This document shows positions 5,043-17,190 of a stretch of DNA of 64,000 nucleotides, in pieces. A program made the translations under genes and the position numbers. Source of the DNA: Picrophilus oshimae DSM 9789 (lineage in GTDB: Archaea > Thermoplasmatota > Thermoplasmata > Thermoplasmatales > Thermoplasmataceae); contig NZ_FWYE01000002.1 in the NCBI RefSeq assembly GCF_900176435.1, forward strand, positions 1-64,000. Direction: 5' to 3'. Position 1 is the first letter of the stretch. Each line of letters begins with the position of its first letter. The notes under the pieces are model-generated. The model made no database searches, was not told the origin of the DNA, and saw only the letters and a list, made by a program, of their open reading frames with translations.

Positions 5043-6197
5043 ATGGATAAGGGCATATTACCATTATTTGTAACGGCCATGATAGACTTTATTGGCTTTG
5101 GTATAATAATACCAATAGCACCGTTTTATACAAGGGATCTTGGTGCCACACCATTTGAATTTTCAATACTTCTGGTTGTTTATTCACTTGCACAGTTTAT
5201 TGCATCACCATATCTTGGCAGGCTTTCAGATAGAATTGGCAGGAAAAATGTTCTTGTACTTGGGCTTTCAGGTGAGATTGCAGGATATTTAATATTTGGG
5301 CTTTCCCCGGTATTATCACTGCTTTATATAGGCAGGGCAATAACAGGCGCAACCTCGGGAAACCTCCCTGTAATTTACTCCTTTGTTTCTGATAAAACAT
5401 CATCAGATAACAGGACAAGGGCCATAGGCATGATAGGTGCCGCAATAGGCATTGGCTTTGTTATTGGGCCCTTTATAGGCGGCTCATTGTCAATTTTTGG
5501 ATACAGGGTTCCAATACTCTTTGCGGCAGTCCTGTCATTTATAAATATGGTTCTTGTCCTTAGAATAAAGGAAGAAAGGAAAAAGACAAATTACAAAAAA
5601 GGGAGTATATTAAAAGCTTTTGAAATTGCACCGTACATTTTTATTTCAATAACCTTCATAGCACTGGGCTTTGTCATGCTTCAGACAACGCTTGCATACT
5701 ATGGCCAGGCACTCTATTCATGGGGCTCGCTGGCCGTTGGCATTATTCTCGGCATCGTTGGCATGGAGCAGGCATTATTCCAGCTTCTACTTGTTTTCAG
5801 ACTGACCAGGAGGATTGGAAGCATAAGGACAGTAATGCTTGGAATAATATCATTTACAATGGCATTTTTAATCCTGTCGTTCAGGGTAAATGAGTACATT
5901 GCCATCTTCTCATTAACATTGTTCTCGCTTGGATATTCTCTTTTTCAAACCCCGGTTATATCAATAATAAGCGATATTGCACCTGTAGAAATACGCGGAT
6001 CCACCCTGGGAATAACACAGTCAGCGCAGTCATTATCAAACATTATTGGACCGTTAATTGCAGGCTATACTTTTGAATTCATATCGATATACTCGCCATA
6101 CATGCTGGCAGCTGCATTTGGAATACTATCACTGCTTTTTATATCCATTTTCATTATCAAATCAGGTTCAGCCTTAAAAGATATAGGTTATACATAA
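5043..6197 (+). CDS. Major facilitator superfamily transporter
   Basis: This is a polytopic membrane carrier of 384 aa with about 12 hydrophobic segments. The cytoplasmic loop 2-3 motif characteristic of the family is clear (GRLSDRIGRK near residues 60-69). The first helices (FIGFGIIIPIAPFY) and the GATSGNLPVIYSF segment resemble the drug/proton antiporter branch, but the substrate cannot be read from sequence. The gene stands alone between the divergent carotenoid genes and the MMPL gene. It has no SD, in keeping with the leaderless or short-leader pattern of single genes here. Confidence 0.85.
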   Translation: MDKGILPLFVTAMIDFIGFGIIIPIAPFYTRDLGATPFEFSILLVVYSLAQFIASPYLGRLSDRIGRKNVLVLGLSGEIAGYLIFGLSPVLSLLYIGRAITGATSGNLPVIYSFVSDKTSSDNRTRAIGMIGAAIGIGFVIGPFIGGSLSIFGYRVPILFAAVLSFINMVLVLRIKEERKKTNYKKGSILKAFEIAPYIFISITFIALGFVMLQTTLAYYGQALYSWGSLAVGIILGIVGMEQALFQLLLVFRLTRRIGSIRTVMLGIISFTMAFLILSFRVNEYIAIFSLTLFSLGYSLFQTPVISIISDIAPVEIRGSTLGITQSAQSLSNIIGPLIAGYTFEFISIYSPYMLAAAFGILSLLFISIFIIKSGSALKDIGYT

Positions 6198-11013: not shown

Positions 11014-11092
11014 CATAATGCTTTGTGTTTAAAAATAAAAAGATTTATATTATAAATAATTATTATCTATTAAGTGGATGGAGTTCCATTAA

Positions 11093-11149
11093 ATGCCTGG
11101 TGCTGATAACTCCTGTTTAAAAATAAGGGGGTGGCATCTTGGCATTTAA
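11093..11149 (+). other. Possible 18-codon leader ORF before the MutS-like pair
   Basis: An ATG preceded by GGATGGAG opens an 18-residue frame (MPGADNSCLKIRGWHLGI). It ends 11 nt inside the following TTG-started gene. A GGAGTT/AACTCC inverted repeat (about 11080-11115) could fold over its start. It may be a translated leader that couples to, or competes with, the MutS-like start, or may be chance. Confidence 0.25.
11127..11134 (+). promoter_or_regulatory. Strong SD that decides a TTG start
   Basis: GGGGGTGG lies 4 nt before the TTG at 11139. No ATG or GTG in this frame lies nearby, so this strong SD supports initiation at TTG. Confidence 0.6.
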
Positions 11150-12665
11150 AAGCATAATTTACATAAAGGATGAGAATAATCTCATATCATATGATTTAGA
11201 TTTATTAACGGATTTATCATTAAATGATATCTTTAAGGGAATTAACGGAAATATAATTGATGATAACATTGATTCAATTCTACATAAACCATTAAAATAC
11301 ATTGAAAATATAAAATACAGGCAGGATGTATTCTCGGATTTAATGGACAATAATTTATACAATGCCGTTAAATTATTTTCTGAAAATTCAGATATTTTAT
11401 TATACAAAATTAGGGGATTAAATGATCTTGATGATGTTCAGAGAAAAAGATGCTTTCTTGATTCTGTATATCTTTACTGCAATGCAATCACATCATTACT
11501 TGAATCATTGAAGAATGCAGATTTAAAATCGTCAGGATTTATTAACCTGTTGGATTATCTTAAAAATTACACAGAATCTGATTTTTTTAAATCACTAAAA
11601 AAAGAATCATATAATATAGAAAAAATTATATCATCAATAAGGTATAAAATAAATATAAATGGCAATAAAATCACTGTTAAGAAATGTTTAAATGATGATG
11701 ATTTCAGTGATGAGATTATCAATGCATTCTCAAAATTCCTTGATGATAAAAATTTTGATTTTAATGATGATAATTCATATGAAATAGGCCATGTTGAGGC
11801 TTCTATAATAGTTTTGGTATCAAGGCTGTATCCTGATGAGTTTGGTTTAATGTCCTCATTTTTTGAAAAATACAATAATTTTATTGATCCTGTGATTGAA
11901 AAATTCATGCATGACATTAAATTTTATTTAAAATACATTATTTATATGAAAAGATTCACAAATTACGGATTAAAATTCTGCATACCAAAGATCATTAATT
12001 CAGGAAATGTTTATGCAGATAATATATATGACCTTGCACTGGCGCAAAAATTAATTATTCATGGAAATATTCCTGTTGCAAATTCATTTTCATTTAATGA
12101 TGCAAACATATTAATTGTTACAGGACCAAACAATGGCGGAAAAACAACGTTTGCACGATCAATAGGCCAGGTTTATTATCTTTCAGCTCTGGGTTTACCT
12201 GTTCCCGGATCCGATGCCGCACTTAATATTCCGGATAAAATATTTACGCACTTTGAAAAATCAGAGGCCATAGAGAATCCAGAGGGAAGGCTAGAGGAGG
12301 AGCTTAAAAGGTTTAAAAAAATAATTGATGAATCTACAGATAAAAGCGTTATAATAATAAACGAGATGCTGAGTTCAACAACAATAATGGACGGCATTGA
12401 AATAGGTAAAAAAATAATAGATCTTTTAATCAAAAGGAAATGCCATTCAGTTTATGTGACTTTTATACATGAATTATCTGAACTTAATGGTGTAAAAAGC
12501 TATGTTGCACAGGTTGGTAATGACCATATTAAAAGAGCATATAAAATAATTCAGGAAAAATCAAACGGAATGGCATATGCACATGCACTCGCTGAGAAGT
12601 ATGGTTTATCATATGAAATTTTAATAAAGAGGATTAAAAATGAGGACCTATCTAACATCAATTAA
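11139..12665 (+). CDS. MutS-like ATPase, first of tandem pair
   Basis: This 508-aa protein has a MutS core/lever-like helical region (about residues 40-310) and a C-terminal MutS ATPase domain. The Walker A is TGPNNGGKTTFARSIGQ near residue 330, followed by the family's Gly-rich LGLPVPGSDAA loop, a THFEKSE signature and Walker B VIIINEMLSSTT. The mismatch-recognition and connector domains of true MutS are absent. The sequence strongly resembles a bacterial family of about 500-600-aa MutS-related proteins of unknown role, as remembered rather than searched, which suggests acquisition from bacteria. It starts at TTG with a strong SD and overlaps the next gene by 26 bp. Substrate and role are unknown. 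Confidence 0.85.
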   Translation: MAFKSIIYIKDENNLISYDLDLLTDLSLNDIFKGINGNIIDDNIDSILHKPLKYIENIKYRQDVFSDLMDNNLYNAVKLFSENSDILLYKIRGLNDLDDVQRKRCFLDSVYLYCNAITSLLESLKNADLKSSGFINLLDYLKNYTESDFFKSLKKESYNIEKIISSIRYKININGNKITVKKCLNDDDFSDEIINAFSKFLDDKNFDFNDDNSYEIGHVEASIIVLVSRLYPDEFGLMSSFFEKYNNFIDPVIEKFMHDIKFYLKYIIYMKRFTNYGLKFCIPKIINSGNVYADNIYDLALAQKLIIHGNIPVANSFSFNDANILIVTGPNNGGKTTFARSIGQVYYLSALGLPVPGSDAALNIPDKIFTHFEKSEAIENPEGRLEEELKRFKKIIDESTDKSVIIINEMLSSTTIMDGIEIGKKIIDLLIKRKCHSVYVTFIHELSELNGVKSYVAQVGNDHIKRAYKIIQEKSNGMAYAHALAEKYGLSYEILIKRIKNEDLSNIN

Positions 12666-14109
12666 TGGAAAAAGGAAAAAATGCAATATTCCATGGAATG
12701 GTGATACAATTATAAAAGACCTTGGATTAAATCCAATTTTAAATGCCATGGCATCCGGCGATGATTACCTTTTACAAAATATTAAGGAATATCTATTAAA
12801 TAATATAAATTCTGTTGATGAAATATTGTACCGTCAGGAAATATTAAAAGATTTTATTAAAAATGGTGACATGGCAAAAAGAATATACAACAATGCCTCG
12901 GAATTCATTGAATCAATAAGAAGGAATTATCTATGGCTCAGCGATTCAATTTCATTTAGTGCATCATTGGGCATAATTAGGGATTTTATAAAATACATTG
13001 ATAAATTAAGGCATATATTTTTGGAGAACAATGATTTTTCATCCATTGGATTAAAAAAATTTTACAATGTTATTTTTAATGATTTTGGAAATGAATATAT
13101 GAATTTTATTAAGAATTATCTGGATATATTAAATTTTAATGATGGCATTGAGCTTTGTATCTCACCTGGACTTGGAAATTCAGGAAAAAATTATAAGCTT
13201 CATAGGCCATATAATGGCAATTCAATAAGAAAATTTATTAGCAATTCAATTGAAAGGCATTACACATACATACTTGCTGAGAGGGACATAAGCGGTGCGG
13301 AGGAGGTTTCTGAGATAAAGAACAGGGGATTAAAAAAGGTAAAATTTGCAGTAATAAATGCTGCAAAGAACATAATGGAATTCTATAATGATATAAAGAG
13401 CGAATCGGGATTTTATCTATCCGCAGTGAATTTATTTAATAAAATTAAAATAAAGAATGGAAATATATGCTTTCCCATTCCATTGAATGATATGAGAACA
13501 TCCTTTAAGGGCTTGTATGACCTTGGTTTGTTTCTTGACACTGAATCAAATGTTGTTCCAAATGATTTAAACAGCGATGCGGAATTATTTATCATTACAG
13601 GCACAAATAAAGGTGGAAAAACAACATTTTTAAGGAGCATTGGACAGGCACAGATATTAATGCAGTCCGGAATCTTTGTTCCTGCGGAATCATTCTCTGC
13701 AAACATTGTTTCAGGAGTATATACGCATTTCAAGCATGAGGAGGATAAGACACTTGAAAAAGGTAAATTTGATGATGAACTCTCAAAGATGGATGAAATA
13801 GTTAAACATTTAAAGGCAAAAGGCATGATTTTATTCAATGAATCATTTTCATCAACAAATACCAGAGAAGGTTCAGAAATAGCATTGGGAATAACAAAGG
13901 CACTTATTGAAAATGGAATAAAAATATTCTTTGTTACACATTTATATGAGTTTGCCTCATCTGTTTATAAAGAAATAAGTGAAAAATCAATGTTTTTAAT
14001 TGCCGAGAGAACATATGATGGAAGGCACACATATAAAATAATAAAAGGTAAACCATCTGAAACAGGATACGCTATGGATTTATACAATAAAATTTTTATG
14101 GAAAAGTAA
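12640..14109 (+). CDS. MutS-like ATPase, second of tandem pair
   Basis: This 489-aa protein is a distant paralogue of the preceding gene. Near the N-terminus it has an ASGDDYLLQ...ILYRQEILKDF pattern like the YRQDVFSDL of its neighbour, then a helical region and a MutS ATPase domain (Walker A TGTNKGGKTTFLRSIGQ near residue 323, Walker B MILFNESFSSTN, and a VTHLYEFA segment). It also lacks mismatch-binding domains. The SD GAGG lies within the end of the first gene, and the 26-bp overlap implies coupled synthesis, so a heterodimer is plausible by analogy with the MutS dimer. Bacterial relatives are remembered as adjacent gene pairs too. Confidence 0.85.
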   Translation: MRTYLTSINGKRKKCNIPWNGDTIIKDLGLNPILNAMASGDDYLLQNIKEYLLNNINSVDEILYRQEILKDFIKNGDMAKRIYNNASEFIESIRRNYLWLSDSISFSASLGIIRDFIKYIDKLRHIFLENNDFSSIGLKKFYNVIFNDFGNEYMNFIKNYLDILNFNDGIELCISPGLGNSGKNYKLHRPYNGNSIRKFISNSIERHYTYILAERDISGAEEVSEIKNRGLKKVKFAVINAAKNIMEFYNDIKSESGFYLSAVNLFNKIKIKNGNICFPIPLNDMRTSFKGLYDLGLFLDTESNVVPNDLNSDAELFIITGTNKGGKTTFLRSIGQAQILMQSGIFVPAESFSANIVSGVYTHFKHEEDKTLEKGKFDDELSKMDEIVKHLKAKGMILFNESFSSTNTREGSEIALGITKALIENGIKIFFVTHLYEFASSVYKEISEKSMFLIAERTYDGRHTYKIIKGKPSETGYAMDLYNKIFMEK

Positions 14110-15513: not shown

Positions 15514-16746
15514 TTAATTATCATTTAGATTTATCGCTGCAAATGGTATTATCATTTCCTCTGGGCCAAGGCCGCCATGCATGCCGCGATCCTTTATTAT
15601 GTCGTTTTCGCAGTATTTGTACCATACTGTATTTCCGTGATATGGAAGTATTATAAAATCTCCAATTCTATTTATATATTTATCCGGTATTTTTGTGGTT
15701 CCAAGAAGGTTTCTATTTATAATTTCATTCCTTGTCATTACCGCTGCAGCTCCATCAAGCTGATTTTCTATGCTTTCCAGTATATCCTCATTGGCATAGA
15801 TGGACATATCCCTTGGGCTCCAGGTTTCTGGCATTATCTTTCCGTTCCTTACTTTAAGATATTTTTCTATATTTTTTATGTATATTTTATGCTCAACAGG
15901 CATGAATCCATGATCAGATGATATAATAATATTAACATCCTTTTTGATCTCATTTAAAAGATCGTTAAACAGGGATGATACATTTTTTATTGAGTATAGA
16001 TGCTCATCACTTCCCGGCCCATACCTGTGCTCCATCTTATCAAAGTTTTCTATATAAAAAAATATATAGCCATCATGCAGCCTTGAAATAAGCTTTTTTA
16101 ATATTAAAAAACCCTCACAGAGGAGATCGAAACGCTTTTTTTCCTTTGTGCCTGAATACATAATATTGCTGTAATCACTTTTTAAAAGGCTTGAGTTTGA
16201 TACAACATATGACCTTATTCCATTAACCTTCAATTTTTCATAGAATGTTTCACCATTGAAAAGTATTTCTGGCGAAAACTTTGAACTGTTAAATCTTTCC
16301 CTATCGAATTTATAAACAGGTATAAATGGCAGGCTCTTTAAAACCATTGAGAATTCATCTATATAAAGACGCCATTCAAATAGTCCATGCTCGCCTGGAA
16401 ATTTGCCTGTATTTATTGTATTGCTTGCTGCAGCTGTTGTTGATGGAAAAACGGCTGTTATTGGGGAGACAATTCCATCATCATTGATTTTTTTAAATGG
16501 TTTATAAAATGATAAATAATCAATCCATTGATTATAGCCAAGACCATCAATGTAAATGAACACTGTTAAAGTATTTTTATTTAAATTTGAATATAATTTT
16601 TTATTCAGCGCTGTTTTATGATTAATATCAAATAAATCGAGTATTGTATTATTTATATTTGCAAAGTTGTATCCATTGTAATCAGGATAAACAAAATTTT
16701 CATCCTTTTCATAGTTTTTAATTAAATCATTAAGAATCATGAACAT
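15514..16746 (-). CDS. Type I phosphodiesterase / nucleotide pyrophosphatase-like enzyme
   Basis: The 410-aa protein belongs to the alkaline-phosphatase superfamily. The N-terminal metal site and nucleophile are visible: FIYIDGLGYNQW, then ITAVFPSTTAAASNTINTGKFPGEHGLFEW with the TT nucleophile segment. The later metal ligands appear in ENFDKMEHRYGPGSDEH and IISSDHGFMPVEH, and a final His in RGMHGGLGPEEM. Relatives hydrolyse phosphodiesters or nucleotide pyrophosphates, with two metal ions. There is no signal peptide, so it is probably cytoplasmic. The physiological substrate cannot be told. Confidence 0.8.
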   Translation of the reverse strand: MFMILNDLIKNYEKDENFVYPDYNGYNFANINNTILDLFDINHKTALNKKLYSNLNKNTLTVFIYIDGLGYNQWIDYLSFYKPFKKINDDGIVSPITAVFPSTTAAASNTINTGKFPGEHGLFEWRLYIDEFSMVLKSLPFIPVYKFDRERFNSSKFSPEILFNGETFYEKLKVNGIRSYVVSNSSLLKSDYSNIMYSGTKEKKRFDLLCEGFLILKKLISRLHDGYIFFYIENFDKMEHRYGPGSDEHLYSIKNVSSLFNDLLNEIKKDVNIIISSDHGFMPVEHKIYIKNIEKYLKVRNGKIMPETWSPRDMSIYANEDILESIENQLDGAAAVMTRNEIINRNLLGTTKIPDKYINRIGDFIILPYHGNTVWYKYCENDIIKDRGMHGGLGPEEMIIPFAAINLNDN

Positions 16747-17102: not shown

Positions 17103-17190
17103 TGCCGGGATCGGGGATTGAACCCGAGACCTCCGGATATCTCAGCATTTGCTTATGAGTCCGGCGCTCTTCCAACTAAGCCATCCCGGC
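17103..17190 (-). tRNA. Elongator tRNA-Met (CAT) with a 15-nt intron
   Basis: The minus strand folds as a tRNA: acceptor stem GCCGGGA/TCCCGGC with discriminator A, a D arm, anticodon stem CCGGA/TCCGG, a 5-nt variable loop, and T arm TCGGG-TTCAATC-CCCGA. The anticodon CAT is at 17155-17157. The anticodon loop is 22 nt instead of 7, explained by a 15-nt intron at the canonical position 37/38 (17139-17153), removed by the archaeal splicing endonuclease. Mature length would be 73 nt before CCA, which is not encoded. The GCCGGG acceptor fits elongator Met rather than initiator or CAU-Ile tRNA. It starts 8 nt after the rps3ae stop. Confidence 0.95.

Follow-up and report, generated by a model that had tools for sequence, protein, structure and literature searches.

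A fluoride-riboswitch-associated pair of overlapping MutS-type ATPase genes in Picrophilus oshimae and many bacterial phyla

At the start of contig NZ_FWYE01000002.1 of Picrophilus oshimae DSM 9789, the 64,000-nt stretch of DNA analysed here (hereafter the window) carries two overlapping genes, A and B, that encode MutS-type ATPases and follow a fluoride riboswitch. Both Thermoplasmata and bacteria of many phyla carry this pair, overlapping and nearly obligate, and in them it is associated with fluoride riboswitches and fluoride genes beyond chance. The reading we favour, with confidence somewhat above even, is that fluoride induces A and B, whose products assemble into a heteromeric MutS-type ATPase that serves in the fluoride stress response and would remodel or free complexes blocked by fluoride. 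The features concerned, in window coordinates, are as follows.

11065–11122, + strand: fluoride riboswitch aptamer (Rfam RF01734, crcB RNA motif; cmscan 28.9 bits, E 3.1e-6)
11109–11141, + strand: predicted expression platform, ACUCCU (11109–11114) pairing with the Shine-Dalgarno GGGGGU (11127–11132)
11139–12665, + strand: gene A, MutS-type ATPase subunit, 508 aa, TTG start (Pfam MutS_V, 4e-23)
12640–14109, + strand: gene B, partner MutS-type ATPase subunit, 489 aa, ATG start (Pfam MutS_V, 8e-22)

Two MutS paralogues that lack mismatch recognition

Both A and B are confirmed as genuine genes for distinct MutS paralogues, each composed of a core/lever and an ATPase domain without a mismatch-recognition domain; a first-pass annotation had described them as adjacent paralogues of this kind, and Pfam, structure models and the separate clades reported below uphold that description. 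Pfam MutS_V scored 82.8 bits in A and 78.5 bits in B (cut-off 30.2), with Walker A motifs GPNNGGKT (A) and GTNKGGKT (B) and Walker B residues N408-E409 (A) and N400-E401 (B), and the genes overlap by 26 nt, the start of B lying inside the end of A. Neither protein had a Pfam match to MutS_I, MutS_II or MutS_IV, and both are too short to hold either the mismatch-recognition or the connector domain (MutS_I, MutS_II). SMR and KOW domains likewise gave no Pfam match in A or B, both of which stop after MutS_V. AlphaFold models (pLDDT 88.9 for A, from 59 sequences; 80.5 for B, from 18 sequences) show a helical core/lever and, after it, the ATPase domain, with only ~55 residues at the position of the MutS clamp, and Foldseek returned MutS proteins as the best matches of both, many of them DNA-bound, with MutS2 among the matches. 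An insert in B is net positive (median +4).

A separate clade with asparagine at Walker B

Phylogeny of the ATPase region resolved A as one clade and B as another, each fully supported, and a single branch, starred in our tree, sets A and B, along with their Bacillota relatives (sister pairs and single genes), apart from MutS1, MutS2 and KamC. The Walker B residues are Asn-Glu in every homologue (85/85 for A, 98/98 for B) and Asp-Glu in the MutS1, MutS2 and KamC of the same genomes; bacteria carrying the pair retain separate MutS1 and MutS2. In E. coli MutS, the Walker B substitution D693N weakens magnesium coordination. The Asn of A and B aligns with the Walker B Asp of Msh3 and Taq MutS and thus stands at the same position as D693N (PDB 3k0s), so that an engineered Asp-to-Asn change in a mismatch-repair protein, which A and B are unlike in that respect, corresponds to their natural state.

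Sister tandem MutS-like pairs with N-E at Walker B were seen in Bacillota genomes (L200, L201, L203, L204), and neither a fluoride riboswitch nor fluoride genes were found around the sister tandem pairs of Bacillota (L200–L210). A UvrD/PD-(D/E)XK helicase-nuclease pair lies near related genes that occur singly (L205, L208).

The trees of A and B alike placed 18 of 20 Thermoplasmata sequences on one side of a supported branch and the other two, from another family, among bacteria, with bacterial phyla mixed. From this mixture of sequences, the pair family seems to be mobile between lineages yet old in Thermoplasmatales. The vertical archaeal descent that would have counted against the bacterial origin proposed in the first-pass annotation is borne out in part, as most Thermoplasmata sequences stay together and two lie among bacteria.

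Co-occurrence of A and B across genomes

Searching 300 Thermoplasmata genomes showed B directly downstream of every full-length A (29 of 29, this genome's included), and all 11 full-length A genes of Bacillota had B next (10 genomes with the pair, 249 searched). Loci found by B alone had A immediately upstream in 78 of 80 cases, the two exceptions being a locus at a contig end (L071) and a solitary copy of B in Paraburkholderia (L114). The contig that holds this solitary B also carries further A/B-like genes. The overlap between A and B is exactly 4 nt in 59 of the 78 loci and is conserved across domains, and an overlapping pair kept across many phyla is not a matter of chance. Trees of A and B built for the same 80 loci had 21 of 77 splits in common, with a maximum of 2 when labels were shuffled, and their distances correlated at 0.95.

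Co-occurrence, overlap and congruent trees together are what one would expect if A and B were obligate partner subunits, and on this comparative evidence an A-B heteromer is likely. The annotation made from the DNA alone had foreseen both a bacterial family of adjacent MutS-related gene pairs, which the 78 of 80 B-loci and 11 Bacillota pairs bear out, and a heteromeric product; the separate occurrence that would have spoken against it was not what the Thermoplasmata and Bacillota genomes held.

A fluoride riboswitch in front of the pair

The ligand of crcB-motif riboswitches was reportedly identified as fluoride by Baker et al. in 2012. The copy in the window lies 16 nt before gene A and falls below the RF01734 gathering score of 34 with its conserved core intact; a default scan of the whole window misses it, and it emerged when the sequence preceding A was scanned sensitively with Rfam. 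It can form both the P1 stem and the long-range pseudoknot, the latter between 11080–11085 (GGAGUU) and 11108–11113 (AACUCC). Over 40 copies associated with the pair, P1 and pseudoknot were 98.5% paired, as compared with 46–59% in slid controls, and changes on both sides were seen at 8 of their 10 pairs.

An independent model (R1), built only from riboswitches away from the pair, recovers the window riboswitch and found one immediately before A at 42 of the 70 loci with upstream DNA, a set picked by protein similarity alone (35 of them at E ≤0.01); Rfam adds one more (L068), giving at least 43/70. Riboswitch and gene positions in the 300 Thermoplasmata genomes placed a riboswitch before 25 of 29 pairs, directly upstream in 21 and, in the others, before one operon gene that is HAD-like (G040, G049) or a dynamin-like GTPase (G193, G254). 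The 10 Bacillota genomes, unselected for fluoride, carried a same-strand riboswitch within 2 kb upstream of all 11 pairs (within 450 nt of 8), and riboswitches occurred in 10/10 Bacillota genomes with the pair versus 11/20 without it. Control searches of 214 kb around MutS1, MutS2, KamC and sister pairs gave no riboswitch match; for some pairs, among them G166, G186, G225, L121, L126, L130 and L131, a riboswitch could be detected neither at the pair nor upstream of it. These sequence patterns strongly support the predicted regulation of the pair by fluoride.

The ligand-free minimum-energy fold (−25.6 kcal/mol, z −3.1; as stable in 2 of 200 shuffles) engages ACUCCU, part of the 3' strand of the pseudoknot, with the Shine-Dalgarno and closes around the TTG start codon of A (11139), and pairing of ACUCC with the Shine-Dalgarno recurs in three other loci with their own ribosome-binding sites (L033, L037, L038) and is unclear in L063. 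Under the mechanism we propose, the RNA would hide the ribosome-binding site of A when fluoride is absent, fluoride would stabilise the pseudoknot and free the site, acting as a translational ON switch, and A and, by coupling, B would be produced together.

Fluoride genes beside the pair

Outside Thermoplasmata, the recurrent neighbours at 74 loci, with each neighbour cluster named by one representative, were enolase (22), MFS transporter (22), dynamin-like GTPase (18), DUF190 (17), CrcB (13), Usp (10), CPA2 antiporter (10), pyrophosphatase (8), phosphoglycerate-mutase-like (7) and P-type ATPase (5). By chance, enolase would be expected at well under one of the 74 loci (a rough estimate from 20 kb of a 4-Mb genome). 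Such gene kinds, recurring beside the pair and behind the same riboswitch, match those of the Enterobacter cloacae FRM operon ppaC-uspA-eno-gpmA-crcB-orf5249, which was experimentally shown to confer fluoride resistance in a paper that leaves mutS unmentioned (PMC5533749). A guess from gene lengths that the neighbourhood serves CoA/B12 metabolism proved wrong, as Pfam gave fluoride genes.

In Thermoplasmata the search for a conserved operon partner turned up only the dynamin-like and HAD-like genes that certain families have. A dynamin-like GTPase of ~580 aa lies between riboswitch and pair in archaea (L057, 11689–13437; L059, 6851–8605), and the bacterial neighbours counted above at 18 of 74 loci (cluster c3) are of the same kind. 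To our knowledge, dynamin-like GTPases have no known role in the fluoride response; recurring in both domains, they may hint at what the pair acts on, or at membrane damage. A HAD-like gene of ~195 aa sits between riboswitch and pair in two Thermoplasmata genomes (L050, 12920–13513; cluster c22).

Proposed role and competing explanations

The riboswitch in front of A and the missing mismatch part make a place for the pair in the fluoride response, rather than in mismatch repair or phage defence, almost certain. Mismatch repair is further disfavoured by the host, whose whole 1.53-Mb genome (99.9% complete) holds A and B as its only MutS_V genes, with no MutS1 or MutS2 and no MutL (PF01119). That the pair may remodel fluoride-blocked complexes is suggested by neighbouring enzymes that fluoride inhibits and by analogy with MutS2, the ribosome-splitting ATPase of B. 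subtilis (PMC10897456), which shares the core/lever and ATPase and the absence of MutS domains I and II, but forms a homodimer, carries clamp, KOW and SMR domains and has D-E at Walker B, whereas A and B are a two-gene pair without these. As we picture it, A and B would join in a heterodimer with two composite ATP sites bearing Asn for the Walker B Asp. In the weakest steps of the model, ATP binding and hydrolysis might pull apart or reset fluoride-frozen complexes as MutS2 does stalled ribosomes, the frozen targets might be nucleotide or metal enzymes whose active site holds Mg-fluoride, and having Asn for Asp might make the pair's own sites less prone to the Mg-fluoride trap.

A bolder version, which we hold to be unlikely, is a dedicated 'unlocking' machine, that is, an Mg-fluoride-resistant Asn heterodimer that would drive the ATP-dependent release of fluoride-frozen complexes from essential enzymes, GTPases or ribosomes. 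If true, it would provide export-independent fluoride resistance, and a main form of it in acidophiles without CrcB. Fluoride should enter acid-loving archaea freely as HF. The host genome has no CrcB, and a CLC-F exporter was ruled out, its single CLC carrying the GSGG/GREGP motifs of the chloride type; the pair may therefore be a main line of protection.

Several rival accounts were weighed against remodelling of fluoride-blocked complexes. Weinberg et al. (2010; PMC2864571) found the crcB RNA motif upstream of 'mutS', read it as a DNA repair gene and proposed DNA-damaging stress conditions; extended to our pair, their idea is that the heterodimer binds damaged or branched DNA under fluoride stress. 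The MutS fold, the DNA-bound structural matches and the positive insert of B, by which nucleic acid could still be a substrate, favour such a role, but the loss of the mismatch-recognition and connector domains, the shortened clamp, the host's lack of MutL or any other MutS, the separate MutS1 and MutS2 of pair-bearing bacteria and the Walker B Asn of both subunits weigh against it. The repair reading leaned mainly on taking the gene for a MutS, a support that is now lost, and we rate fluoride-induced repair as possible but improbable. The resemblance to MutS2 and the charged insert of B could also be taken to mean that the pair splits or protects ribosomes stalled by fluoride-blocked translational GTPases. 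This we judge quite improbable: A and B lack the SMR and KOW domains that recruit MutS2 to collisions, stand phylogenetically apart from MutS2, and have no ribosome genes among their named recurrent neighbours.

The best NCBIfam match of B is KamC (NF052383), the reactivase ATPase of lysine 5,6-aminomutase and, per its NCBI family name, a short (~500 aa) MutS-like ATPase that acts on an enzyme and not on DNA, which raised the idea of a reactivase for a coenzyme-B12 enzyme. B scores 88 bits and A 61 bits against a cut-off of 300, however, and the true KamC of Thermoanaerobacter, at 607 bits, groups with MutS2, has D-E at Walker B and a different gene context, with no aminomutase among the named recurrent neighbours of our pair. 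Score, phylogeny and gene context contradict the aminomutase reactivase identity, and a KamC-like role is very improbable. Least credible of all is an anti-phage or mobile-element system on an island, close to the defence or mobile DNA-processing role first suggested for the pair. Its distribution is patchy, its genomic position differs between genera and its GC is lowish (29% versus 35%), but PADLOC gave only weak ATPase-level matches (best E 0.0013), IMG/VR viral contigs held no relative of the pair, and the riboswitch and neighbours are those of fluoride resistance. The defence reading was dropped after these searches, and the 'mobile-looking island' of the first-pass annotation is a weak description, as no mobile genes were found among the tested neighbours, which include ribosomal protein S3Ae and TrmB.

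The statement that the family has no described role also needs correction, as a 2010 paper (PMC2864571) had already reported, upstream of 'mutS', the RNA motif now recognised as the fluoride riboswitch. That regulon resembles ours in having the same RNA family directly before mutS-annotated genes in bacteria and archaea and, as in our host, in control of formate-hydrogenlyase-type operons; its main text, in contrast, names a DNA-repair gene (mutS), where we find a pair of paralogues that overlap, lack mismatch domains and belong to a separate clade with Asn at Walker B. In our searches of the PMC literature, no paper connected the function of MutS with fluoride. The 'mutS' genes behind fluoride riboswitches, listed since 2010 as DNA repair, belong, in those followed here, to a separate two-gene family of ATPases that bears a sequence signature of its own and is conserved over two domains of life. 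A vague annotation thereby becomes testable questions, namely what effect the pair has on fluoride tolerance and what it binds.

Other features of the host genome

The host has a second fluoride riboswitch (5304–5374 of locus L172, G000:C1:124000-137000) before a NuoH/NuoL/NuoD-like operon, which agrees with the listing of formate-hydrogenlyase genes by Weinberg et al. (PMC2864571). This operon is of proton-pumping or formate-hydrogenlyase type. Near the pair, on the opposite strand of the window, lies a gene for a phosphodiesterase/PglZ-like protein (15514–16746, − strand; PF01663, PF08665), and a tRNA at 17103–17190 (− strand) has what looks like a 17-nt insert, probably an intron, in its anticodon region.
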